Below, one piece after another: positions 44,634 through 58,200 of a stretch of 64,000 nt of DNA; position 1 is the stretch's first letter, and each line of letters opens with the position of its first letter. The notes below the pieces were generated by a model that was given only the letters and a program-made list of their open reading frames with translations, had not been told where the DNA came from and searched no databases. This DNA comes from Runella defluvii (GTDB lineage Bacteria > Bacteroidota > Bacteroidia > Cytophagales > Spirosomataceae): contig NZ_JACIBY010000003.1 in assembly GCF_014195535.1 (NCBI RefSeq), forward strand, positions 310,001 through 374,000. Direction: 5' to 3'. A program made the position numbers and the translations under genes.

Positions 44634-45437
44634 ATGCGATTCAAACTCACGTTAGCCCCCGTTAGAGACCGTCAGCGTTTAGTGTTCAACTACCAATATC
44701 CCCTGCAAGCGTGGATTTATGGTCGCTTGGCCAATGCCGACGCTGAGTATGCTGGTTTTCTGCATGAACGGGGCTACCAAGTACCCGAGAGTCGAAAGGC
44801 GTTTAAGCACTTTACTTTTTCAGCTTTGCAAATACCCAGCATCGAACCCATTAAGAAAGGTGATACGTATATGGTGCTGCGTTCGGGTGTTTTGACGTTG
44901 TATATTTCATTTTATGTGGACAAAGCGGCCGAAAATTTTATCGTTGGGCTGTTTCAACAGCAGCAACTGAGCATTTATAATCGAGAATGTAGGGCCGATT
45001 TTGTGGTAGAACGCGTGGAGACAGCGCCCTTGCCCGCGATGGAAAGTTCGATGACATTTCGTACGCTGTCGCCGATGGTTGTGGCCCAAAAAGTAGATGA
45101 TTTGGATCAATATTTAACCCCAACGGACGCTGATTTTGGGCGATTTTTTGCGGTGAATTTGGTCGATAAACTGCGTTCGGTGCAACCTTCCATGGAGATG
45201 GACGCGGCGATTGCCGAGCGACTGGTCAAGTTTGAGTTGCTAAGCGACCCTGAACGGATAAAAAAGCGAGGTTTTCTGGCCAAAGAAGGCAAAGAGAAGG
45301 AGCAAACAAAAGTAATTGGTTATCACAATTTTACGTTTTCCCTGACCGCCCCGCCCGAACTCATCGAGGTAGGCTATTTGGGAGGATTTGGGAAGTATTG
45401 TTCGATGGGATGTGGGTGTGTAGAGGTGGTGGGATGA
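44634..45437 (+). CDS. cas6: CRISPR pre-crRNA endoribonuclease Cas6
   Basis: A 267-residue RAMP protein with two ferredoxin-like domains. His44 in FLHERGY is the likely general base of Cas6 catalysis. The C-terminal glycine-rich loop GYLGGFGKYCSMGCGCVEV is the family hallmark. It cuts pre-crRNA within the repeat, leaving an 8-base 5' handle (here expected ATTGAAAC). Full length. First gene of the cas cluster, 196 bases after the lipoprotein gene, and separated by the terminator. Composition matches the surrounding chromosome, unlike cas3-cas5. Confidence 0.92.
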   Translation: MRFKLTLAPVRDRQRLVFNYQYPLQAWIYGRLANADAEYAGFLHERGYQVPESRKAFKHFTFSALQIPSIEPIKKGDTYMVLRSGVLTLYISFYVDKAAENFIVGLFQQQQLSIYNRECRADFVVERVETAPLPAMESSMTFRTLSPMVVAQKVDDLDQYLTPTDADFGRFFAVNLVDKLRSVQPSMEMDAAIAERLVKFELLSDPERIKKRGFLAKEGKEKEQTKVIGYHNFTFSLTAPPELIEVGYLGGFGKYCSMGCGCVEVVG

Positions 45438-45496
45438 AGGGTTTTGGAAGTTAATTTTTAGAAAAAGAAAATGCGCTAGGTTAATGAATTTGAGTT

Positions 45497-46423
45497 ATGA
45501 ATAAATTCAACGATAATAGTCCAAAATACCGCTTGTTGGCAATTCTCAAGCTCCTCATTGAGAGCCCGTACCAATATACGAGAAGGACATTGGCGACCAT
45601 GTACAACGTTGTCCCCGATACTATCAAAAAGGATTTTGAAGAGCTTCGTGATGCCGATTTTAATGTGGAACACGACCATCAATACCGATATGCTATCGTT
45701 CCTAACAAGTCGATGCAACACTTAGAGGATATGCTGTTTTTTACAGAAACCGAGAAAGAAATTTTGATGGATGCTCTTGCCAACAATGCCAAAGCTTCTG
45801 AAAAAAGAACAAAGCGAATGCAGGAAAAATTGAATGCCATTTATGATGTATCAAAATTGGGAAGTAGCTTGTTTTCAAGGACTTTTCTCTCGAAAGCGAA
45901 TTTGCTGGAGCAAGCCAAGCAACATAAAAAAGTGGTGAAACTGATCAATTACCGTTCAACGAATAGTAGCGAAGTGTCAGATAGGTTGGTAGAGCCGTTT
46001 TCGGTAAATGTAAAAGAAGACATACTTCATGCTTTTGCCATCGAACGCAAGGACATTCGGCATTACAGGATTTCAAGAATTGAGCGAGTAGAATTGCAGG
46101 AACTACCTTGGCTATACGAAACGCAACATTATGTAACTGCCACAGACCCTTTTAGGATTGTAAATGACCAAAAAATACGGGTGCATATTCGCCTGCGTGT
46201 GGGTGGCTATAACGAATTGATAGAACGCTTCCCGCTTACGCAAGCCTATTTACAACCCTCGGCTGGCGAACCTGGTGTATATGATTTTGAATGTAATGTA
46301 AATGAAAAGTTCTTTGGGCTGACCAACTTTATTCTGGGCTATCACGAGCATATCGTTGAAATCGTAGAACCTGAATCGCTCATTGCGCATATCCGAAGGC
46401 ACATTGCAAAAATAAATTTTTAG
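45497..46423 (+). CDS. WYL-domain transcriptional regulator
   Basis: A 308-residue regulator: N-terminal winged HTH (LLAILKLLIESPYQYTRRTLATMYNVVPDTIKKDFEELRDADF), then a WYL domain (VVKLINYRSTNSSEVSDRLVEPFSVNVKEDILHAFAIERKDIRHYRISRIERVEL) expected to sense a ligand such as a nucleic-acid piece or nucleotide. WYL proteins regulate several CRISPR-Cas and anti-phage systems. It sits between cas6 and cas3, 59 bases after cas6, so it probably controls this operon. A G-rich run (46451-46464) follows before cas3. Confidence 0.88.
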   Translation: MNKFNDNSPKYRLLAILKLLIESPYQYTRRTLATMYNVVPDTIKKDFEELRDADFNVEHDHQYRYAIVPNKSMQHLEDMLFFTETEKEILMDALANNAKASEKRTKRMQEKLNAIYDVSKLGSSLFSRTFLSKANLLEQAKQHKKVVKLINYRSTNSSEVSDRLVEPFSVNVKEDILHAFAIERKDIRHYRISRIERVELQELPWLYETQHYVTATDPFRIVNDQKIRVHIRLRVGGYNELIERFPLTQAYLQPSAGEPGVYDFECNVNEKFFGLTNFILGYHEHIVEIVEPESLIAHIRRHIAKINF

Positions 46424-46498
46424 AAAATTTGAGGGGTAGGGCGAATAATGAGGGGGGGAGGGGTGAATATTTGAAACAGAAAATTGATTTACGAAAAT

Positions 46499-49030
46499 AT
46501 GAACATAGAAGAATACTACAAAAAAACATTTTCTGATGGCATTGTTCCATACAGTTATCAGCTTGCCGTAGCTAAAAAACTATTGGAAGGTAAAAATGTA
46601 ATATTACAAGTCCCAACAGGAGCAGGAAAAACGTGGGCATCTATAATGCCTTTTTTGTATGCGCGAGAATTAGGGCTTGACTCATTTCCTGAAAAAATGA
46701 TTTATAGTCTTCCTTTGAGGACTTTGACAAACTCTATTTATGAAGATGTTTTTGAAGTTCTTAAAAAAAATGGGTATGATGAAGGAGAAATAAAAAGACA
46801 AACAGGAGAATATTCTGATGACCCCTACTTTGAGAAGAATATTATTTTTTCAACTATTGATCAAACGTTAAGTAATTTCCTCTGCTTTCCATTGCCGTTA
46901 TCACCACGACAAGCCAATATTAATGCAGGGGCATTGATTGGAAGTTATTTAGTATTTGACGAATTTCATTTGTTAGATAGTGAGCTTTCAATGGCAACCA
47001 CTATTGGTACATTGAAAATGCTCGGGAATCTTTGTAGATGTTGTATAATGACTGCGACACTTAGTGAAGATTTTATGTGCTCTCTCAAAAGTACGTTGGA
47101 TAATTACGAAATTATCACATTAGATGATTTTGAGGTTGATAAAAGTAGAATAAGGTCTTTACTTCCTACCGAAAATAAGAAAACCGTTTGCGTTTTAGAT
47201 ACAACACTAAATGCAGAAAATGTCATTGAAAACCATAAGGATAAAACAATAATCATTTGTAATCGGGTTGAAAATGCACAAAAAATCTACTATGAACTGA
47301 TTGAGAAAAAGGAGATAACCGATAATTTGAAGTTCAAAAATGCCGAAATTATCTGTTTACATTCTCGCTTTTTTGATAGTGACAGGAAAGCAAAAGAGAA
47401 TAAGTTGAAGAACTTATTCGGGAAAAATGCTACCGATACCAATGTGATATTAATAGCAACGCAAGTAATTGAGGCAGGAATGGATATTTCATGTTCAGTC
47501 ATGCACACAGAAATATCACCAATAAGCTCTTTTTTACAAAGGGTTGGTCGTAATGCTCGCTTTGCAGATGAAATTGGGAAAGTATTTATTTATTCACTTT
47601 TGGAGGTTGAAGAGAAAGAACGAATAAAGTTAGAACCAGAAAACAAAGAAGATAAGACTGAGATAGCGAAATTGAATAATAAATATTTGCCTTATGATAA
47701 AGATTTATGTGAAAAAACATTCACTGAACTTAAAAAATATCAAACACTTGATGGAAATATTCTAAAAAAACTAATTGAAGCAGTATTAGGCGAAACAGAA
47801 AAAGATTTAATTAAAAATATGTCTTCTGGACAAGCTGGCGGATTTAATCAAGAAAAGATTAAACAAAGCTGGAAGGATTGTAAAAAGAATAACTACCGAC
47901 ATACAATTAGAGATATTCAGAGTGTAGAAGTTATTTTAATCAATGAGAACCAAAAAAATGAAGTTGCCAAATATCCATTTCGCTTCCAATCAATTGGTAT
48001 GTATAAATGGAGCTTAGTTTCATGGCTAAACAAAATTATGAAAGGAGAAGGTGTAAGAAACTATGATATTGAATCGAATACACTTGCATGGACTTTGGAA
48101 GAAAATACCTTCTTAGGCGAAATGAATTTTGAAAATGATGAAGATGTTAAATTTACGCTTCAAAAGCTCACTACTCTTGATAAAATCCCAAACCGTTTAT
48201 TCGTAAATGCCTATTATTTAGGCTATGATGAAGGTATAGGGTTAAACTGGCAATATGAATCTACATTTGATAATTCGTCGCCAAGAAGCGTGTATAAAGA
48301 AAAGAAAGATGATTTCAAACCACTTGAAAAAGATACGTTCTATCAGCACAATATGGGCTTAATTGGAGCTTTTGAACAAGAATTTTTGGGAGATAAAAGA
48401 AATAAATTGGACTTTGTATTTAAGCAATTGGCTGACTACATTGATATGTCAGAGCTAGAAAAGGATAATTTTATTGAACTGATAAAGTGGATGATTGTTT
48501 TACACGACTACGGAAAGCTCAATGAAAAATGGCAAGTGCCCATGCAAAAATACCAAGCATTGAAAGACACCAACTGGGAACTTGAAGTATTGGGACATAC
48601 AGATTATGACTCAAAGGATGAAAAGGACTTAGCCTTAGCAAAACAGGCAGGACTTAACCAAAGACCTCCACACGCAGGCGTTGGAGCTTATGCTATCCAA
48701 GAAGTACTAGATGAATATTATGATAATGCCTATTTAAAAAGTGGTATCTCCATGGCAATAGCAAAACATCATAGCCCAGACTTATCAAAAGCAGAGTATC
48801 CAACTTTTAAGATTTCAGAATTTAATTATAACGTTATGCGAAAACTGTTGGCACAGTTCGAGTTAGACTTTGACTTGGAAAAAAATGATACAGAGGGAAG
48901 ATTGGATGGGTTTATATTAGATGATAGTGATTTTAAGCAGTATGTCATTTATTTGTTTTTTGTAAGGATTCTTAGACTTTGTGACCAGAAAGCGACAGAT
49001 AATTTTAAAAAATATTTTAACGAAAACTAA
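46499..49030 (+). CDS. cas3: CRISPR helicase-nuclease Cas3 with C-terminal HD domain
   Basis: An 843-residue protein. The helicase comes first: Walker A PTGAGKT near residue 40, DEFH box near 154, MTATLS, and QRVGRNAR near 347. The HD nuclease is at the C-terminus: VLHDYGK with His669-Asp670, HAGVGAY near 725, and KHHSPD near 757. In common Cas3 proteins the HD domain is N-terminal, so the order is reversed. It unwinds and cuts target DNA after Cascade binding. ATG 46499 is used (a TTG at 46484 is weaker). AT-rich codon use. It ends one base before cas8. Confidence 0.93.
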   Translation: MNIEEYYKKTFSDGIVPYSYQLAVAKKLLEGKNVILQVPTGAGKTWASIMPFLYARELGLDSFPEKMIYSLPLRTLTNSIYEDVFEVLKKNGYDEGEIKRQTGEYSDDPYFEKNIIFSTIDQTLSNFLCFPLPLSPRQANINAGALIGSYLVFDEFHLLDSELSMATTIGTLKMLGNLCRCCIMTATLSEDFMCSLKSTLDNYEIITLDDFEVDKSRIRSLLPTENKKTVCVLDTTLNAENVIENHKDKTIIICNRVENAQKIYYELIEKKEITDNLKFKNAEIICLHSRFFDSDRKAKENKLKNLFGKNATDTNVILIATQVIEAGMDISCSVMHTEISPISSFLQRVGRNARFADEIGKVFIYSLLEVEEKERIKLEPENKEDKTEIAKLNNKYLPYDKDLCEKTFTELKKYQTLDGNILKKLIEAVLGETEKDLIKNMSSGQAGGFNQEKIKQSWKDCKKNNYRHTIRDIQSVEVILINENQKNEVAKYPFRFQSIGMYKWSLVSWLNKIMKGEGVRNYDIESNTLAWTLEENTFLGEMNFENDEDVKFTLQKLTTLDKIPNRLFVNAYYLGYDEGIGLNWQYESTFDNSSPRSVYKEKKDDFKPLEKDTFYQHNMGLIGAFEQEFLGDKRNKLDFVFKQLADYIDMSELEKDNFIELIKWMIVLHDYGKLNEKWQVPMQKYQALKDTNWELEVLGHTDYDSKDEKDLALAKQAGLNQRPPHAGVGAYAIQEVLDEYYDNAYLKSGISMAIAKHHSPDLSKAEYPTFKISEFNYNVMRKLLAQFELDFDLEKNDTEGRLDGFILDDSDFKQYVIYLFFVRILRLCDQKATDNFKKYFNEN

Positions 49031-49031
49031 C

Positions 49032-50786
49032 ATGTATCAAAACTTTTCAATTAAAAAAGAATCTGGCACTTACTCTGAGACATTAGAAGCTTTTGGGGTT
49101 GCAAAACTTATATCAAATATTTTCTCAAACCTTAGTATTCAAGGTGTACAAATAAAAATTGAAGATAAGGGGAGTTTTTATTGTGTAAGTAGCAATAAAC
49201 CTTTAACAAACGAGCTTTTAGATAACTTGTCATATTTCTTGATATTAAAATTTATCAAAAAAGATGCAAGTCAAGAGGTTCCAGAAGGTCTTCTGGTGAA
49301 TGACTATTTCAATTATCCTGACCAAAAGGTTGAGTTAGATAATTATAAGAAGCGATTTACCGAAATTGAAAGCAATAAGCTCTTGAATGTAGAGCAGAAG
49401 AAAGTTGAACGTAAGAAACTAGCAGAAGAAAAACTGTCAGAATTTGGCAAAAAGCTAGATGCTGAGTTTGATGTGTACAGGGAAATAATCAAGAACCCAT
49501 ACGCATCATTTAGTAAACTCTTCGATAACTTTTACCAGAATAGGGACAACTTTAGATTATTGGTTAAAGAGATTTTGAATTTCTATACCGATCAACCTAT
49601 TGCTAAAAGGTCGTTTAAATTAGCAGATGAAAAGCCAACATCTCAGCAGTTATACAACCCGAATCAAGGGAAAGGGCTGAACCGAGGAAAAGCTAACAAT
49701 CCTTCAATGGGTAATCTAGACTCAAATTGGATTTCCGAAACGATGAAAATTTCGGGTGCGTTAGACATGATGGTTTGCCAGTATGTAAAAGTTGGTTCTT
49801 CGTATGACTTAAAGGTATTTGTCCCCGAGTTTAATGATATTCTATTGCACAAAGCAAAAGATGTTGTGTGTCATTTTAAAAAGCACCTGAAAAGTACTTC
49901 ACCAATAAAATTGGATATTATAAACATTCTTGATTTTACTGAAAAGTTTATAAAAGAAACACCCGAATACAATAAAGGAAAGGTAAAAAACACAATAAAA
50001 GGCTTTCATTCTGTTTATCAAAAGGATTTGGGTCAAAATAAGGCGGTGGCAAATATTGCCTTTATTCAAACTCCAGATTTTGTTGAGTATAAAAATAAGG
50101 ATGAGAGTTTAGAATGGATTGAAATTCTAAGCCAGCAAAAATCTTTAATATCGAACATTGAAGAATTAGGTGATTCAATGCAAGGATTGCAAGCCTATAG
50201 GGATTTTCTTGGAAGTGTATCTAACTCAGCGTTGGGTCATTTTTCAAAATTCAATTACTGGTACTCTGGTTATTTAATGCAACAATTGACCAAAGGGAAC
50301 AAATTTGTAAGGGCATTTAAAATTGAACATTTAAACAAATTTTATCACAATATGGAACCAAAATTAAGTGAAATTATCAACAATGAAGGTTTTAAGGCCG
50401 TCGCGGGTGCTATTAGAAGAAGTACTGTAAGTCTTCAGTACACACCTAAAGACCAACGAAAATTTGATATTCGATATGGTCTAGCTCAGCAGCTTCAAAA
50501 CAAATCTAAATCAAAGGAGGATTTAGCAACTTTCATTGGTGAGTTTATCAGTACTTATAATGCTGAAACAGGAAGAAATGCTGAAAAGAATGGAGGTAAA
50601 GCTCTTAGAGCCAATGTAAAAGAAGGAGAATTGATGAGGTTTTATGATATTTTAGACAGTAATCCTCCTCGTTTAGTAGGTGCATTATTAGCGTCTTATG
50701 GCTTTGCTCTTTCATCAAAAGAAAAAGTACAAGAGCCAGACGAAACTGAGCAAACGCAAGATAATCAAGAAGATACTAACCAATAA
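49032..50786 (+). CDS. cas8: Cascade large subunit Cas8 (type I-B-like)
   Basis: A 584-residue protein in the large-subunit position, between cas3 and cas7. It has no CxxC zinc pair. Readable stretches include FKSAL-like helices, LGSVSNSALGHFSKFNYWYSGYLMQQL and a C-terminal helical part (FIGEFISTYNAETGRNAEKNGG) that could act as the small-subunit portion. Large subunits bind the PAM and R-loop in Cascade. Sequence is too divergent to name the sub-subfamily by eye; neighbours (DevR-like Cas7) point to the I-B branch. Charged, Gln/Glu-rich tail. AT-rich like its neighbours. ATG 49032 is one base after the cas3 stop. Confidence 0.82.
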   Translation: MYQNFSIKKESGTYSETLEAFGVAKLISNIFSNLSIQGVQIKIEDKGSFYCVSSNKPLTNELLDNLSYFLILKFIKKDASQEVPEGLLVNDYFNYPDQKVELDNYKKRFTEIESNKLLNVEQKKVERKKLAEEKLSEFGKKLDAEFDVYREIIKNPYASFSKLFDNFYQNRDNFRLLVKEILNFYTDQPIAKRSFKLADEKPTSQQLYNPNQGKGLNRGKANNPSMGNLDSNWISETMKISGALDMMVCQYVKVGSSYDLKVFVPEFNDILLHKAKDVVCHFKKHLKSTSPIKLDIINILDFTEKFIKETPEYNKGKVKNTIKGFHSVYQKDLGQNKAVANIAFIQTPDFVEYKNKDESLEWIEILSQQKSLISNIEELGDSMQGLQAYRDFLGSVSNSALGHFSKFNYWYSGYLMQQLTKGNKFVRAFKIEHLNKFYHNMEPKLSEIINNEGFKAVAGAIRRSTVSLQYTPKDQRKFDIRYGLAQQLQNKSKSKEDLATFIGEFISTYNAETGRNAEKNGGKALRANVKEGELMRFYDILDSNPPRLVGALLASYGFALSSKEKVQEPDETEQTQDNQEDTNQ

Positions 50787-50797
50787 ACACTACCAAA

Positions 50798-51784
50798 ATG
50801 GCTGAAGCTAAAAAAATAATTGCCTCAATCTCAATCAGTGGAGAAATTACGCTAAATCTTCATTCTTTAAATAATGAAGGAGGTGAAGGAAATCAAATTA
50901 TCACTCGTCAAGTAACAATTGTTGATAAAGAAGGGGAAATACATACCGTCAATGCTATCTCTGGCGATATGTTTAAACATATACATGCCGTTCATTTGGC
51001 TCAAATTGCTAAAGAACAACAATTGCCTTTGAGCAAATATGCAGAAGCTTTAAATCCGAACAGAATTTCTGGGGAAGAATTAGGGAGTTATTCTAAAAAT
51101 AGTATTGCTAAAGCGAACGGTACTGCTGCTGATGTTATAGATGCGATGATTGATATTTGTACAGTTTGCGATACGCATGGAATTTTGATTACTGACAAAA
51201 TTGGAGAGAATAAAAACAGTTCAAACACGCCAAGAAAATCAACAGTTGAATTTGGTTGGACAGTGGGAATCCCCAATAAAACTAATACTGAAAGTTACTT
51301 GCATACAAAACTTGTTACGAATGCTGGAAGTACAGAAACAACGGGAAGTAATGAAGGACAAAATATTTTCCATCGTCCCGCCAACCATGGAGTGTATGCT
51401 TTCGTCTGTAGTATAGACGTTTACCGTATTGGATTTAATGATATTTCAAGAAAATATCCAGATGGAGTTGATAGAGCCGCGCGCTATAAAGCACTATTGC
51501 AAAGTTTATTGAGTTCATTTATTAATCCAAAAGGGGCTATGACGAGCACCCAAAAGCCACATATTACTGATTTTAAAGGAGTTGTTGCAATTTCAAGTAA
51601 ACTAACTCCTGCTCCAACTATCAGTGCTATAAATGATGGTTACCAAGCTGAAATCACGAAAATTGCTAACAGCTTGAACAAGATAGAGTCAGATATGATT
51701 GAACTGAAAAAATTTGATGGCTTAGGTAATCTTGCCGAAATTATTGCAGATTTAATGACGTATGAACCCTACAAAATTTCCTGA
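50798..51784 (+). CDS. cas7: Cascade backbone Cas7 (Cst2/DevR-type)
   Basis: A 328-residue RAMP protein. The opening IIASISISGEITLNLHSLNNEGGEGNQI is the recognised DevR/Cst2 N-terminus, with ISGDMFKHIHAVHLAQIA following, and FHRPANHGVYAFVCSIDVYRIG in the middle. It forms the crRNA-coating backbone of Cascade. It starts 11 bases after cas8, and its stop overlaps the cas5 start (ATGA-like TGATG). AT-rich. This protein is the main reason for the I-B call. Confidence 0.93.
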   Translation: MAEAKKIIASISISGEITLNLHSLNNEGGEGNQIITRQVTIVDKEGEIHTVNAISGDMFKHIHAVHLAQIAKEQQLPLSKYAEALNPNRISGEELGSYSKNSIAKANGTAADVIDAMIDICTVCDTHGILITDKIGENKNSSNTPRKSTVEFGWTVGIPNKTNTESYLHTKLVTNAGSTETTGSNEGQNIFHRPANHGVYAFVCSIDVYRIGFNDISRKYPDGVDRAARYKALLQSLLSSFINPKGAMTSTQKPHITDFKGVVAISSKLTPAPTISAINDGYQAEITKIANSLNKIESDMIELKKFDGLGNLAEIIADLMTYEPYKIS

Positions 51785-52452
51785 TGATGAGGTTTTCGGC
51801 AATTTTTCAACCAACGACATTATTTTCGCTAAAAGAAAGTAATTCAACGAATAAAGGAGCAAAATCCCTTTTTTTGCCTTCGCCTTATTCTATAAAAATG
51901 GCAATTCTTAATCAAGCCATTACGATTGGTGGTGATTTGTCAAAATTAGAGGAGAAAAAAAGTCAAGAATTTGGGTTTATTCGTGACTCAAAAATAAGTT
52001 TTTATATACCTGATTCAAATAGTTTTTGTGTAAACAATTCATTTGTTAAAATTCAAGAACCAGTAAGAGAGGGAAGTGGATTTAAGCCAACCATTTCTTT
52101 CAGAGAATATGTTTTCATCTCAGACAAGATTGAAATCATTTTTGAAGTTTCGGCAATTGAAGCAAAACAATATCTCTCGAAATATTTGTATAAAATCAAT
52201 TATTTTGGGAAAAGAGGTTGTTTTTTTCAGTTTTTGGAATTTAATGATAACCCTCCAGAAGCCAATGTTAAGCCATTTGATGCTAAAAAAGGAGTTATGG
52301 GAGTCTTACAGTCGTATGACGATTTTGATGAAAAAGCGACTTTTGATAGTGTAAATAGTTACTCCAATTCGACAGTAAAAAGGTCGAAGCAGATATTAGT
52401 GTTGCCATTACAAATAGTAGGTGCATCAAAAAGCTTTACATTATTCAAATAA
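51784..52452 (+). CDS. cas5: Cascade subunit Cas5
   Basis: A 222-residue RAMP protein following cas7, with start ATG 51784 overlapping the cas7 TGA by one base (a second ATG at 51787). N-terminal FSAIFQPTTLFSLKES with SLFLPSPYSIKMAIL matches the Cas5t-type opening that contacts the crRNA 5' handle. Ends with LPLQIVGASKSFTLF. Smaller and divergent; the assignment relies on position and the opening. Last gene of the AT-rich block; transcription would continue to cas4. Confidence 0.82.
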   Translation: MMRFSAIFQPTTLFSLKESNSTNKGAKSLFLPSPYSIKMAILNQAITIGGDLSKLEEKKSQEFGFIRDSKISFYIPDSNSFCVNNSFVKIQEPVREGSGFKPTISFREYVFISDKIEIIFEVSAIEAKQYLSKYLYKINYFGKRGCFFQFLEFNDNPPEANVKPFDAKKGVMGVLQSYDDFDEKATFDSVNSYSNSTVKRSKQILVLPLQIVGASKSFTLFK

Positions 52453-52503
52453 ATTAATGACGTTTCCTCGACATTTTGATACACAGGGAAATATCAACTT
52501 TCT

Positions 52504-52531
52504 GTAGAGATGTTGTCTTCAACGTACCTAC
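52504..52531. repeat. Degenerate REP-like palindrome
   Basis: Twenty-eight bases starting GTAGAGATGTTG and ending CAACGTACCTAC. It matches the perfect palindrome at 52923-52950 over most positions (about 22 of 28) and lies upstream of the transposase gene, as expected for a REP unit served by that transposase. Confidence 0.6.
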
Positions 52532-52560
52532 CCTTTAGCATTTTTTGTAATCCCATTACC

Positions 52561-52614
52561 ATTCCCCCCAACCCCCGTCTAATGCCTAAAAAACTTAGAC
52601 GGCTATGGGGGAAT
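52561..52614. repeat. Long imperfect hairpin at the transposase start
   Basis: Inner arms CCGTCTAA (52575-52582) and TTAGACGG (52595-52602), outer arms ATTCCCCC (52561-52568) and GGGGGAAT (52607-52614). The transposase ATG (52605) is inside the 3' side. Could be a terminal hairpin of the element, recognised by a Y1 transposase. Confidence 0.5.
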
Positions 52615-53198
52615 TGTTTGAGAACAAATACCGTATCGAATCGGCACGGTTAAAAGGATGGGATTATGGGTCGGAAGGGGCCTATTTTATTACCATTTGT
52701 ACCAAAGACCGAGCACATTTCTTTGGCGAATGTGTCAATGGAAAAATGAAATTATCGACCATGGGGGCAATTGTGCAGGGGTGTTGGTACGACATCCCCG
52801 CGCATTTTCCACACATTGCGTTGGGCGCCTTCGTGACGATGCCTAATCATATTCACGGGATTTTGGTATTGGATAAATCGTTGCGGGAACAAAATCGGGG
52901 GGACAACGGTGACGACGACGACGTAGAGACGTTGCATGCAACGTCTCTACCCCCCACGAATGCCCCCGCATTTTATCAGGCGATTTCGCCCGATGCAGGG
53001 TCGATACCAACCGTAATTCGTTCGTTTAAATCGGCCTGTACCAAACACATCCGTGAAACCTTTCCACAGCAGAATTTTGGTTGGCAAGAACGTTTTTGGG
53101 ACAATATCATTCGGAACGAAGCATCGTGGGATAGGATTCGTAACTACATCGTCACCAATCCTGCCAACTGGAACAAGGACAAATTTTTTGACCAATGA
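52605..53198 (+). CDS. REP-associated tyrosine transposase (RAYT, HUH/Y1 family)
   Basis: A 197-residue Y1 HUH nuclease. The metal-binding MPNHIHGI (H-I-H) and the catalytic Tyr in RNYIVTNPANW are both present, so it appears intact. N-terminal GAYFITICTKDRAHFFG is typical of RAYTs. It nicks single-stranded hairpin DNA and is associated with REP elements. Two REP-like palindromes are nearby, one inside the gene. It is located between cas5 and cas4, and its TGA overlaps the cas4 ATG (ATGA). GC content resembles cas4/cas1, not cas5. Such a position inside a cas operon is unusual. Confidence 0.9.
   Translation: MGELFENKYRIESARLKGWDYGSEGAYFITICTKDRAHFFGECVNGKMKLSTMGAIVQGCWYDIPAHFPHIALGAFVTMPNHIHGILVLDKSLREQNRGDNGDDDDVETLHATSLPPTNAPAFYQAISPDAGSIPTVIRSFKSACTKHIRETFPQQNFGWQERFWDNIIRNEASWDRIRNYIVTNPANWNKDKFFDQ
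52923..52950. repeat. Perfect 28-bp palindrome (REP-like) inside the transposase gene
   Basis: Arms GTAGAGACGTTGCA and TGCAACGTCTCTAC, contiguous, no loop. It is read in frame (VETLHATSL), in a variable Asp-rich loop that tolerates insertion. It is a copy of the unit at 52504 and typical of dispersed REP palindromes. Confidence 0.85.
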
Positions 53199-53746
53199 AC
53201 ATCACTGCGACATTGCTAAACTATTACCAGCTGTGCCACCGCAAAATGTGGCTGCACTACCATGCCATCCGAATGGAACACACCTCGGAGGTGGTGTATG
53301 AAGGCAAGCTGATAAGGGAGGAGAGCTATCCTTTTCGGGCCGATAAAAACGAAGAGGTGGAAATATCACTCCCTCTCCAGAAAGGAGATGGCTGGGGTGA
53401 GGAGGTTGTCCTAACGGCCAAAATAGATTTTTTTGACGCCAAACGTGGGATTGTCCACGAAACCAAGAAATCGGCAGCCAAAGAATGGGCGCACGTCGCG
53501 CAGGTGCAGTTTTATCTGTACTTGTTGCAAAAAAATGGCGTAGAAGTCAGCCACGGTGTTATCGAATACCCCAAATTACGCCAAACCGAACGGGTGACAC
53601 TTGGCGAAGAGGACGTGCTACGAATTGAAGCCAACATCGAAAAAATCAGGGAAGTGCTCGAACAAGAACAATGTCCGCCAAAGTTGCCGATTTCAAAATG
53701 CAAAGCGTGTAGCTATTTTGAATTTTGCTGGGTGGGAGACGAATAA
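53195..53746 (+). CDS. cas4: CRISPR-associated exonuclease Cas4
   Basis: A 183-residue PD-(D/E)XK nuclease with the Fe-S cluster Cys: Cys14 in YQLCHRK and the C-terminal set C-x8-CKAC-x5-C (CPPKLPISKCKACSYFEFC). RecB-like active site IDFFDAKRG...HETKKS with Asp, Glu and Lys. It trims 3' overhangs and helps choose PAM-side spacers during adaptation with Cas1-Cas2. Its start overlaps the transposase stop (ATGA), so coupling is tight. A G-rich repeat unit (53371-53405) codes the EISLPLQKGDGWGEEVV loop. Confidence 0.93.
   Translation: MNITATLLNYYQLCHRKMWLHYHAIRMEHTSEVVYEGKLIREESYPFRADKNEEVEISLPLQKGDGWGEEVVLTAKIDFFDAKRGIVHETKKSAAKEWAHVAQVQFYLYLLQKNGVEVSHGVIEYPKLRQTERVTLGEEDVLRIEANIEKIREVLEQEQCPPKLPISKCKACSYFEFCWVGDE
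53371..53405. repeat. C-rich/G-rich repeat unit inside cas4
   Basis: CCCTCTCCAG then AAGGAGATGG then GGGGTGAGG-type sequence, in frame within cas4. Same type of unit as in mnmE and in the cas1-cas2 gap. Confidence 0.5.
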
Positions 53747-53766: not shown

Positions 53767-54771
53767 ATGAAAAAAAGCTATTATCTCTTTAACCCTGGCC
53801 GCTTGAGCCGTAAAGACAACACGCTCTGTTTTTTGCCCGTTGACGAGGACGGTAACGAAGGACAGCCGCGCTACATTCCCATTGAAGGAGTCGATAACCT
53901 GTATTGTTTTGGGAGTTTGGACGCCAACAGCGCGATGTACAATTTTTTGGGTAAAAACCACGTATCGGTTCATTTTTTCGACTATTACGAACATTATACG
54001 GGGTCGTTTATGGCCAAAGAGTATTTGTTGGCGGGCAAAATGCAAGTAGAACAAACGCGTCATTATCTCTCCGACAAAAAACGGATGGTCGTAGCCAAGA
54101 CCTTGGTTGAAGGGGCGGCTTTTAACATGTCCAAAAACCTGAAGTACTACCAAGGGCGTGGTAAAGACGTAGCCAAGCAGCTGGGACAAATCGAAAGTTA
54201 TACGCCTTTGATTTCCAATGCGGGAAACATTGCGGAGTTGATGGGCATCGAAGGCAATATCCGACAAGCCTATTACGGGGCATTTGGAGAGATAATCAAC
54301 GATTTTGACATGGGAACCCGCAGCAAGCAACCGCCTCAAAACGAGGTGAATGCGTTGATTTCGTTTGGGAACATGATGTGCTACACGGTATGTTTAGACC
54401 AAATTTACCACACCCAACTCAACCCTACCATTAGTTTTTTGCACGAACCTGGGGCGAGGCGGTATTCGTTGGCATTGGATTTGTCGGAGATATTCAAACC
54501 GATGTTGGTCGATCGCACGATTTTCAGCGTATTGAACAAAAAACAGCTACAAGCCAGCGATTTTCGGCAGGATATAAACCGCTGTGTGTTGAAAGAAGGG
54601 GCAAAAAAGGTATTTGTACAAGCGTTTGAAGAGCGGCTGAAAGAGACATTTAAACATCGTTCGTTGGGTAGAAGCGTGAGTTATAAGCATTTAGTAAAAC
54701 TAGAGTGTTACAAACTGCAAAAGCACCTGCTGGGTATGGAAGTGTATAAACCTTTTAAAATGATGTGGTAA
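53767..54771 (+). CDS. cas1: CRISPR integrase Cas1
   Basis: A 334-residue integrase. Metal ligands: Glu in MGIEGNIRQAYY, His in SFLHEPG, Asp in ALDLSEIFKP. With Cas2 it inserts new spacers at the leader end. Start at ATG 53767, 20 bases after the cas4 stop. Full length and intact, so adaptation is probably functional. Native composition. Confidence 0.97.
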   Translation: MKKSYYLFNPGRLSRKDNTLCFLPVDEDGNEGQPRYIPIEGVDNLYCFGSLDANSAMYNFLGKNHVSVHFFDYYEHYTGSFMAKEYLLAGKMQVEQTRHYLSDKKRMVVAKTLVEGAAFNMSKNLKYYQGRGKDVAKQLGQIESYTPLISNAGNIAELMGIEGNIRQAYYGAFGEIINDFDMGTRSKQPPQNEVNALISFGNMMCYTVCLDQIYHTQLNPTISFLHEPGARRYSLALDLSEIFKPMLVDRTIFSVLNKKQLQASDFRQDINRCVLKEGAKKVFVQAFEERLKETFKHRSLGRSVSYKHLVKLECYKLQKHLLGMEVYKPFKMMW

Positions 54772-54810: not shown

Positions 54811-55074
54811 ATGTATGTAATATTGGTGTATGATATTGGAGAAAAACGAGTGGCAAAGATGTTGAAACACTGCCGCAAGTACCTGAACTGGATTCAAAAT
54901 TCGGTGTTTGAAGGAGAAATCACGGAGGCGAAGTTGAAAGAAATGTTGATGGGTGCGCGGGCGATTATGAATGAGGACCAAGACAGCGTCATCCTATTTA
55001 AGAGTCGGAACGAGCGGTGGCTCGACAAAGAAATTATTGGGGTAGAACGAAGTTCCATTGATAACTTTCTTTGA
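54811..55074 (+). CDS. cas2: CRISPR adaptation protein Cas2
   Basis: An 87-residue protein with the Cas2 opening MYVILVYDIGEKRV (Asp8 in the metal site), NSVFEGEIT and the dimerisation tail (VILFKSRNERWLDKEIIGV). It bridges two Cas1 dimers in the integration complex. It starts 39 bases after cas1; the leader and array follow. Confidence 0.97.
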   Translation: MYVILVYDIGEKRVAKMLKHCRKYLNWIQNSVFEGEITEAKLKEMLMGARAIMNEDQDSVILFKSRNERWLDKEIIGVERSSIDNFL

Positions 55075-55278: not shown

Positions 55279-58200
55279 CTTTAAATCGTACCATTTTGGA
55301 ATTGAAACTCTATGGGTGTAAGTTATTGCTAGATAAATCAAATCTTTAAATCGTACCATTTTGGAATTGAAACGTATTCGTATCCTTACACTGACCCGTC
55401 ATCGGGACACTTTAAATCGTACCATTTTGGAATTGAAACCAAAAAATAAACTTACCTTACTTACTAAAATAGGTACCTTTAAATCGTACCATTTTGGAAT
55501 TGAAACTCTGCATCCCCCCGCCCGCAATATCTGTAATAGTACTTTAAATCGTACCATTTTGGAATTGAAACTCATTTTCGGCCTTTGCACGTTCCACCGT
55601 AAACGCCTTTAAATCGTACCATTTTGGAATTGAAACCAAGGTGAGCGTACCACTTTTGTTTTTCTTGAAATAGCTTTAAATCGTACCATTTTGGAATTGA
55701 AACTTTTGGAAACATCGGTATCAAGAAAAAAGCCCTGCTTCTTTAAATCGTACCATTTTGGAATTGAAACTTGCGAAAAATGGGTTTAACGTCCGATAAA
55801 GAAAACTTTAAATCGTACCATTTTGGAATTGAAACAACAGCACAACCGTAATGCCATTGCTTGTACAAATACCTTTAAATCGTACCATTTTGGAATTGAA
55901 ACTTTTCTTAAATTTTATTGCACAATTAAAGTGCCTGCTTTAAATCGTACCATTTTGGAATTGAAACTAAAGCGTTTAGAGGCTGTATCAAAATAGGTTT
56001 GGCTTTAAATCGTACCATTTTGGAATTGAAACCATTTTTCGATTGTTAAGCGCTCTATTTTAACGCCTCTTTAAATCGTACCATTTTGGAATTGAAACCT
56101 TGACCAAACTAGCCTATCATTCCAGATACGCATCTTTAAATCGTACCATTTTGGAATTGAAACCGTCCTGCGGTGGTATCTTTCCAATCTCGTTTGATTC
56201 TTTAAATCGTACCATTTTGGAATTGAAACAATGTCAGGCGTATAAAATTTAAACTCTATGCTACTTTAAATCGTACCATTTTGGAATTGAAACATGTTAT
56301 AGACCCCTCGAAGGTAATACCACCAGCGCCACTTTAAATCGTACCATTTTGGAATTGAAACTGAAAAAACAAAGACATGGGATGGAATGGGGCGTTTCTT
56401 TAAATCGTACCATTTTGGAATTGAAACACGAAGTTCATTACTACGAAGGACGAACTTGGACACTTTAAATCGTACCATTTTGGAATTGAAACGCGTAAAT
56501 CCGTTCCAGTGTCTTTTCTACCAAAGGTGCTTTAAATCGTACCATTTTGGAATTGAAACTAAACCTGGCGTACTCTCGGCCTTCATCGTCTGCGAACTTT
56601 AAATCGTACCATTTTGGAATTGAAACTGAACACGCACCCTAACTTCATTGACGCTTCACGTAGCTTTAAATCGTACCATTTTGGAATTGAAACATTTGAC
56701 GGTGGGGAGGTGCAGTGTTTTGATTTGGACTTTAAATCGTACCATTTTGGAATTGAAACCAGTAAACTTGGTAGAGTCTGTATCAAAACAAATTACTTTA
56801 AATCGTACCATTTTGGAATTGAAACACAGGTTTTGAAATCTTTGGAGGCGGCAAATGAAAAGCTTTAAATCGTACCATTTTGGAATTGAAACATTTTCCC
56901 AAGGATAAAACCAAAAAACGTTGTACTCTTTAAATCGTACCATTTTGGAATTGAAACAAAATTCTGTTGTGGTTATCTCCGTACCAATCAGTTCTTTAAA
57001 TCGTACCATTTTGGAATTGAAACTGTATCGAATGTTTAAGGACGTGGCAGAGATGGAGGGCTTTAAATCGTACCATTTTGGAATTGAAACGCATCTTGCT
57101 TACCTACGAGCGGCACTTTGATAATCTTTAAATCGTACCATTTTGGAATTGAAACTTTTGATTGACTTGTTGTGCATTTAATCCGTACTTTCTTTAAATC
57201 GTACCATTTTGGAATTGAAACAGTACTTTTTCCGCTTTTTCGCGGGATGGATCGACTTTAAATCGTACCATTTTGGAATTGAAACCATAGCATCGTCGTT
57301 GGCATCGGCACACAACTGCTTACTTTAAATCGTACCATTTTGGAATTGAAACTTTCGAAAATGGTTGAGAAATACGGGCATTTGCTGCTTTAAATCGTAC
57401 CATTTTGGAATTGAAACATTACGTAAATAACCATTACCAAAATGAACATTAACCTTTAAATCGTACCATTTTGGAATTGAAACAGATTCAATCGGAAGGT
57501 ATGGCCTCGGAACGTGGCCTTTAAATCGTACCATTTTGGAATTGAAACCAAGCGCAACGAACGCCGCCACGTCTGCTACAACAGCTTTAAATCGTACCAT
57601 TTTGGAATTGAAACTCAAAATCATGTCATTAACTCAAAAAGATTTTTTTACTTTAAATCGTACCATTTTGGAATTGAAACACAAAGTGAATCTAGGTAAG
57701 GCGGCAGAAAAGTACACTTTAAATCGTACCATTTTGGAATTGAAACTATTAAGGGGCGGTTAGTGCTTGTAGTTGGGAGTCACCTTTAAATCGTACCATT
57801 TTGGAATTGAAACATCAGAAGAGACGATGATAACAAGCTACCATCATCTTTAAATCGTACCATTTTGGAATTGAAACAAAGGATGAATAAATAGGTGTTA
57901 TCTTGCTTTTTCCTTTAAATCGTACCATTTTGGAATTGAAACCTTTTAAACAATCTTTCAACCTCAATTTTTACAACCTTTAAATCGTACCATTTTGGAA
58001 TTGAAACTTTGGCGGTAATCATCACCATGCTTCCGCCTAAGGCTTTAAATCGTACCATTTTGGAATTGAAACATACGTGGACTCCACAAATGATTAATCA
58101 AACTGACACTTTAAATCGTACCATTTTGGAATTGAAACAGAGGAGCATACAAACCCGTATGGTTGCCCCAACCCTTTAAATCGTACCATTTTGGAATTGA

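Follow-up and report, generated by a model that had tools for sequence, protein, structure and literature searches.

The presence of an apparent transposase gene inside a CRISPR-Cas operon of Runella defluvii raises the question of whether this gene serves the CRISPR system or is a guest within it. We analyzed a 64,000-nucleotide stretch of DNA (the window) that contains a type I CRISPR-Cas operon in the order cas6, regulator-like gene, cas3, large effector gene, cas7, cas5, RAYT, cas4, cas1, cas2 and array. An intact Y1/HUH ORF of the RAYT type lies between cas5 and cas4 on the same strand. The features of the operon are as follows.

44634 to 45437, + strand: cas6 (PF01881, PF21350)
45497 to 46423: regulator-like gene of 308 aa between cas6 and cas3, no family match
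46484 to 49030, + strand: cas3 (TIGR01587, TIGR01596)
48981 to 50786, + strand: large effector gene, cas8-like by position only
50798 to 51784, + strand: cas7 (DevR/Csa2; PF01905)
51784 to 52452, + strand: cas5, by a weak TIGR01874 match under its cut-off and by position
52504 to 52531, no strand assigned: degenerate GTAG REP palindrome 5′ of RAYT, 79% complementary to the intragenic REP (fold z −3.2)
52566 to 52611, + strand: RNA hairpin enclosing the RAYT start codon (arms found; fold of 52555 to 52620, z −4.8)
52605 to 53198, + strand: RAYT/TnpA_REP gene, 197 aa (PF01797; NF047646 below its cut-off; 4er8 by profile and fold)
52923 to 52950, no strand assigned: perfect 28-nt REP palindrome within the RAYT ORF (fold z −8.4)
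53195 to 53746, + strand: cas4 (PF01930, 156 bits), its start overlapping the RAYT stop (ATGA)
53767 to 54771, + strand: cas1, I-B type (PF01867, TIGR03641)
54811 to 55074, + strand: cas2 (PF09827)
55279 to 55967, + strand: first part of the CRISPR array, which goes on past the stretch read (repeats read directly)

The large effector gene matched neither Pfam nor NCBIfam. The regulator-like gene, for which there was no NCBIfam match, is presumably of the WYL type. This gene lies within a block of DNA that is 94% identical in the related genome G165, and the effector genes downstream of the block differ.

The original prediction described a complete RAYT gene between cas5 and cas4 in the same orientation, with intact catalytic motifs (H-I-H and Tyr) and a TGA overlapping the cas4 ATG as ATGA. 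Reading the ORF confirmed all of these points. The cas5 stop is at 52452, the HUH motif (N81-H82-I83-H84) and Y181 are present, and the gene ends CAATGA, with its TGA sharing four nucleotides (ATGA) with the cas4 ATG at 53195. The start had been placed at 52453, which needed correction: the ORF begins at the ATG at 52605, and the stretch 5′ of it contains the degenerate REP and most of the strong start-codon hairpin.

An alignment of 46 RAYTs showed that N81, H82, H84, W160, Y181, I182 and N185 are invariant. The WQ motif corresponds to W160 and Q161. The Tyr motif of the window RAYT is YIVTNP, in which the Tyr, Ile, second Asn and Pro of the alignment consensus YIxNNP are present and the first Asn is Thr. 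The protein scored 24 bits against PF01797 (Y1_Tnp), narrowly above the gathering cut-off of 23, and its place in the window was not among the matches of a PF01797 search of the genome at E 0.001. The score against NF047646 (REP_Tyr_transpos) was 55.6 bits, under the curated cut-off of 80, with the best stretch confined to the C-terminal part. A profile built from five cas4-adjacent RAYTs matched 4er8, a TnpA_REP, as the sole solved sequence at E 0.01. Similarly, the best fold match of an AlphaFold2 model (mean pLDDT 81.5) was 4ER8 (E 9.8e-7), followed by transposases of the IS608/ISDra2 type. Sequence identity to 4ER8 is nevertheless only 19%, and the window RAYT has a long linker that contains a REP-encoded peptide. 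This peptide, VETLHATSL, is encoded by the intragenic REP at 52923 to 52950 and lies in the low-confidence linker of the model, where residues 102 to 117 have a pLDDT below 50. The perfect palindrome inside the ORF had escaped the original prediction. The linkers of two related RAYTs (L053 and L052) carry a glutamine-proline dipeptide expansion arising from a simple DNA repeat, which in L053 lies beside the intragenic REP.

Because of these motifs and the REP inside the ORF, the window RAYT appears to fit TnpA_REP subclass 2.4 of Quentin et al. 2018. As given in PMC6006769, this subclass shares with the window RAYT the NH[IFV]H, WQ and YI..NP motifs, GTAG REPs, a REP inside the transposase gene, low copy number and occurrence in Bacteroidetes. 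The single deviation is YIVTNP, with Thr at the fourth place, for the subclass motif YIxNNP. The E. coli TnpA_REP enzymes are assigned in the same source to subclass 2.2. The main text of that paper contains neither the word CRISPR nor the word restriction, and so it does not describe RAYTs that reside within cas or hsd operons.

We also examined the REP palindromes. In the window genome the palindrome was found at 10 places at up to 3 mismatches, including the copies at 52504 and 52923, and its reversed control was found at none. For a wider view we used 131 distinct RAYT loci picked by RAYT similarity alone, with a query built on cas4-adjacent RAYTs; two duplicates were dropped, and only loci of at least 100 bits and 150 aa entered the count. 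Of these RAYT ORFs, 105 of 131 contained a palindrome whose 9-bp arms match perfectly, a number that fell to 3 of 131 in shuffled sequence. With up to 5 mismatches allowed, the region 5′ of RAYT had 12 REP-like palindromes in L065, 9 in L053, 3 in L066 and 2 in L051. In the same region L054 was without a REP copy, and the window had only the degenerate copy at 52504. By eye, the start-codon hairpin of L054 has a more regular form. There were no REP-like palindromes in the RAYT-less relatives L055, L056, L057, L060 and L071, of which L057 is a short contig. In L065 (7187 to 8449), and also in L066, the copies belong to a tandem array whose units, about 12 in number and about 103 bp long, contain one REP-like palindrome apiece. 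The array in L065 is placed within the CRISPR operon, between the last effector gene and RAYT. Thus, some of these cas operons contain a complete REP/RAYT system.

Cas4 was found in 63 of the 222 genomes of the family, and a RAYT was located at cas4 in seven of these 63. Besides the window genome, RAYT is directly 5′ of cas4 in G162, G165, G171 and G172 of the same genus and in G117 and G120 of another genus. The other 56 genomes had no RAYT match at cas4 (E 1e-20; a few contigs end near cas4). A contig scan covering the best 80 of 551 matches yielded an eighth cas4-adjacent RAYT, L168 from Amniculibacterium aquaticum. In a class-wide Cas4 search, with 29 matches of at least 50 bits by our own count, comparison with RAYT added only G161 (L256), in which RAYT is 3.1 kb before cas4. 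Thus, RAYT at cas4 is rare outside the window's family, and its recurrence in other genomes makes the arrangement more than chance.

Six RAYT rows from the two genera formed one clade with support of 99/99, and the best RAYT tree placed L168, L188 and L140 elsewhere. A single origin of all seven cas4-adjacent rows, L168 included, was not on the best tree, and the AU test did not reject it (p 0.178). The L168 RAYT was likely recruited independently. The values of w for RAYT were 0.05 to 0.13 (seven pairs with a finite value), as compared with 0.025 to 0.09 for cas4 and 0.02 to 0.05 for cas1, and the dS of RAYT was within about two-fold of the cas4 and cas1 values. RAYT is therefore under purifying selection and somewhat less constrained than cas4. 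Since this selection acts on amino acids, translational coupling alone is insufficient to account for it. The catalytic residues are intact in the cas4-adjacent copies that were read, with the exception of the G165 RAYT (L054, 8453 to 8965 on the cas4 strand). This copy has lost 26 residues in frame, including the Tyr motif, with its ORF and its ATGA overlap with cas4 kept. Because 56 of the 63 genomes have no RAYT at cas4 and one copy has lost the Tyr motif, RAYT is dispensable, and it does not show the regular presence of a CRISPR core or ancillary cas gene.

These results bear on whether the gene arrived by a recent accidental transposon insertion that overlapped cas4 by chance. Y1 transposases can move, and the window genome contains further REP copies. 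However, the only further matches in this genome fall in one paralogue, in two segments of 57% and 44% identity, so that the next copy is 57% identical over its matched part. The window RAYT shares the Y1 HUH fold with the TnpA of IS200/IS605 elements; unlike a mobile element of that kind, it has no near-identical copies in the genome and carries a REP in its ORF. Occurrence in two genera, the low w and the 99/99 clade likewise argue against this scenario, which we regard as hardly credible. Instead, the original suggestion of a long-settled arrangement was supported by the seven genomes, the single clade of the six readable RAYTs and purifying selection.

The perfect stop-start overlap had been considered an unusual outcome for a pure insertion. 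This argument turned out to be weak. Among the cas4 genes compared, 51 of 82 start with NTGA, and of 71 loci with some different upstream ORF, 13 have it end at exactly −4; L052 (G172), in truth a RAYT locus behind an assembly gap, was counted among these 71. An NTGA start offers an easy stop to an incoming ORF. A −4 overlap was present in all seven cas4-adjacent RAYT loci with a readable RAYT end, including the window; L052, the eighth locus, in which the gap hides part of RAYT, ends alike by eye. The difference between 7/7 and 13/71 is real, yet six of the seven come from one clade. Given the NTGA starts and the other loci at −4, the overlap is no sign of a special partnership. We rejected it as proof of function, as other genes in this position share it.

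The slot directly 5′ of cas4 holds a variety of genes in relatives: AAA_14/DUF4143 ATPases, an AbiEi-AbiEii pair, a weakly kinase-like protein, DUF1016/YhcG, PRiA4_ORF3 or none. Slot content required 19 changes on a Cas4 tree, which was a quick tree with SH-aLRT support only, from which eight broken or distant rows of 82 were excluded and for which the slot labels of L052 and L067 were assigned by eye. Genes of the AAA_14/DUF4143 type are 5′ of cas4 in nine loci (L056, L058, L060, L061, L064, L075, L081, L090 and L103), and in seven of these they end between −4 and +1 of the cas4 start. AbiEi/AbiEii-type genes occupy this position within the cas operon in L059 (by Pfam), L067 and L068, and the last AbiE-type gene of L059 and L068 closes with ATGA on cas4. 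The original prediction named related loci that lack the transposase, with cas5 joined directly to cas4, as evidence against it, and comparable loci exist: in L071 and L057 an effector gene, Cas3, runs straight into cas4 without RAYT. The junction of CRISPR effector and adaptation genes thus serves as a slot for which a pool of guests is available, among them RAYT, AAA/DUF4143, the AbiE pair and YhcG.

Alignment of the window with related loci revealed exchange of the effector cassette beside RAYT. Against L051, blastn matches of the window were confined to cas6 (ending at 45445) and to the sequence from 52598 onward. Similarly, against L054 they covered cas6 and the neighboring gene (ending at 46487) and the sequence from 52553 onward. 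These breakpoints precede the RAYT ATG by 7 and 52 bp, which places RAYT on the adaptation side, where it stays with cas4-cas1-cas2. Against L052, identity was 98.2% up to the cas5 stop and 81% across the part from RAYT through the adaptation genes. The claim that recombination had joined the modules at this point thus held insofar as the site of effector-cassette exchange directly precedes RAYT. Replacement of effector genes beside intact adaptation modules is reported in the available text of PMC5704561. The present case agrees with that shuffling and differs in having a guest gene at the border; that text makes no use of the word transposase. The proximity of the breakpoints to RAYT would also be expected if RAYT and its REPs acted as a hinge that causes module exchange through nicking at hairpins. 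However, L056 and L057, both of which are without RAYT, show the same change, with their match starting exactly at the cas4 start. Since exchange is also seen without RAYT, we rejected RAYT as its cause and consider the hinge very unlikely.

Relatives of this RAYT are found in other immune operons. A hsd or cas gene (at least 70 bits, with HMMs built on RAYT neighbors) was within 700 nt in 31 of the 131 RAYT loci, 22 being type I restriction and 9 CRISPR. All 48 of the 48 nearest hsd or cas neighbors were on the RAYT strand, and in 21 loci RAYT was flanked on either side by such genes at distances of up to 1500 nt. When the five loci from the window's clade were set aside, 26 of 126 RAYT loci were near hsd or cas genes. 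The remaining 100 of the 131 loci lacked such a neighbor at up to 700 nt; defence operons are thus enriched and not exclusive. With 1.5-kb flanks, hsd or cas neighbors were present in 17 of 54 RAYT loci and in none of 30 IS200-type TnpA controls (Fisher p 3.5e-4), a comparison biased toward the RAYT side because the neighbor HMMs were seeded from RAYT neighbors. Excluding the window's clade gave 12 of 49 against 0 of 30 (p 2.5e-3). Representative HsdR, HsdS, HsdM, Cas9, Cas1, Cas2, Cas3 and YhcG genes were confirmed by Pfam and NCBIfam. In a seed-independent check with PF04313 in a 395-genome draw, at least 8 of 100 RAYTs were within 7 kb of an HsdR match on the same strand, as compared with about 0.2 expected by chance (a rough estimate from about 340 HsdR genes), and four of these were within 20 nt of the match.

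The restriction gene maps read hsdM-RAYT-hsdS, hsdS-RAYT-hsdR and hsdS-RAYT-hsdM. In L141 (G275), which has the last of these orders, there are −4 overlaps at either end of RAYT. Type II CRISPR maps read cas9-RAYT-cas1 (L188) and cas9-RAYT-AAA-cas1 (L248), and a type I map from the window's genus reads cas3-RAYT-YhcG-cas1-cas2-cas4 (L256). In L168, the gene of 351 aa before RAYT had no Pfam match and a sub-threshold Cas7 match. CRISPR context required 4 changes on the RAYT tree, which does not include L133/L256. Of the slot guests, RAYT and YhcG were also found in restriction operons. These results point to RAYT as a recurrent guest gene of bacterial immune operons.

The restriction loci weigh on the earlier speculation that RAYT affects spacer acquisition. 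In this reading RAYT would be an accessory factor, an ssDNA nuclease made together with Cas4-Cas1-Cas2 that trims hairpins for them or otherwise handles these structures. Retention of RAYT with the adaptation module through effector exchange is what such an accessory factor would show, as are the intact catalytic residues of all cas4-adjacent copies read but L054 and the position between effector genes and cas1 in L188, L248 and L256. However, only 7 of the 63 cas4-positive family genomes have RAYT at cas4, L054 keeps the ORF without its Tyr motif, and the same family resides in restriction operons, where spacer acquisition is absent. We therefore think a role in acquisition unlikely. A somewhat less remote proposal, which we still doubt, is that the REP hairpins and RAYT form a built-in attenuator that lowers translation of the coupled cas4-cas1-cas2 genes, or of HsdR in restriction operons. 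The fold scores of the start-codon hairpin (z −4.8) and the intragenic REP (z −8.4), the REP-like copies, as many as 12, that immediately precede RAYT in one relative, the ATGA overlap with cas4 and the location of RAYT directly 5′ of hsdR in several loci are consistent with attenuation. Conversely, the position of RAYT in restriction operons varies (hsdM-RAYT-hsdS and hsdS-RAYT-hsdM also occur), most relatives do without RAYT, and coupling alone would not hold amino-acid changes at w near 0.1.

Taken as a whole, RAYT is probably a REP/RAYT guest that has settled where modules of defence operons meet, is carried with the adaptation module and is not a spacer-acquisition enzyme. According to this model, a REPtron, consisting of a domesticated TnpA_REP gene and REP hairpins, would have settled at the border of the effector and adaptation modules of the CRISPR operon, in a slot directly 5′ of cas4 that takes many unrelated guest genes. 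An upstream ORF often closes on the cas4 ATGA, by which cas4 may be translationally coupled to the preceding gene. Recombination with a break 5′ of RAYT would exchange effector cassettes, such that RAYT travels with cas4-cas1-cas2. Purifying selection would keep the protein for REP processing, in which it might cleave single-stranded GTAG REPs, or for another benefit to the host. The same family has also become established, on repeated occasions, at borders between the subunit genes of type I restriction operons and of type II CRISPR operons. Some benefit is missing from the guest account, because w near 0.1 would not be expected of a guest that is simply tolerated.

One possibility, which we offer tentatively, is that subclass 2.4 TnpA_REP proteins and their REPs are functional guests of multi-subunit immune operons, having been recruited several times where the effector and adaptation modules of CRISPR-Cas (types I and II) meet and many times at the junctions of type I restriction subunits. 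Such a guest might tune the expression of a dangerous module or add an ssDNA-directed defence activity. PMC8049555 describes RAYTs as domesticated single-copy genes with vertical inheritance and argues that their REPINs confer a benefit. A preference for borders inside immune operons provides a concrete, testable setting for this long-term retention. A limited search of the RAYT/REPIN, CRISPR-accessory, restriction-modification and defence-island literature, including the available text of PMC3733652 and PMC8266576, found no report of an association of RAYT with CRISPR or restriction.

Operons of other kinds also have RAYTs settled at their borders. The paralogue in the window genome (L009, G000:C9:223262-224083) has a −4 overlap with the next gene, and one shared pair of conserved genes flanks this second RAYT in six loci (L009, L123, L124, L125, L126 and L183).
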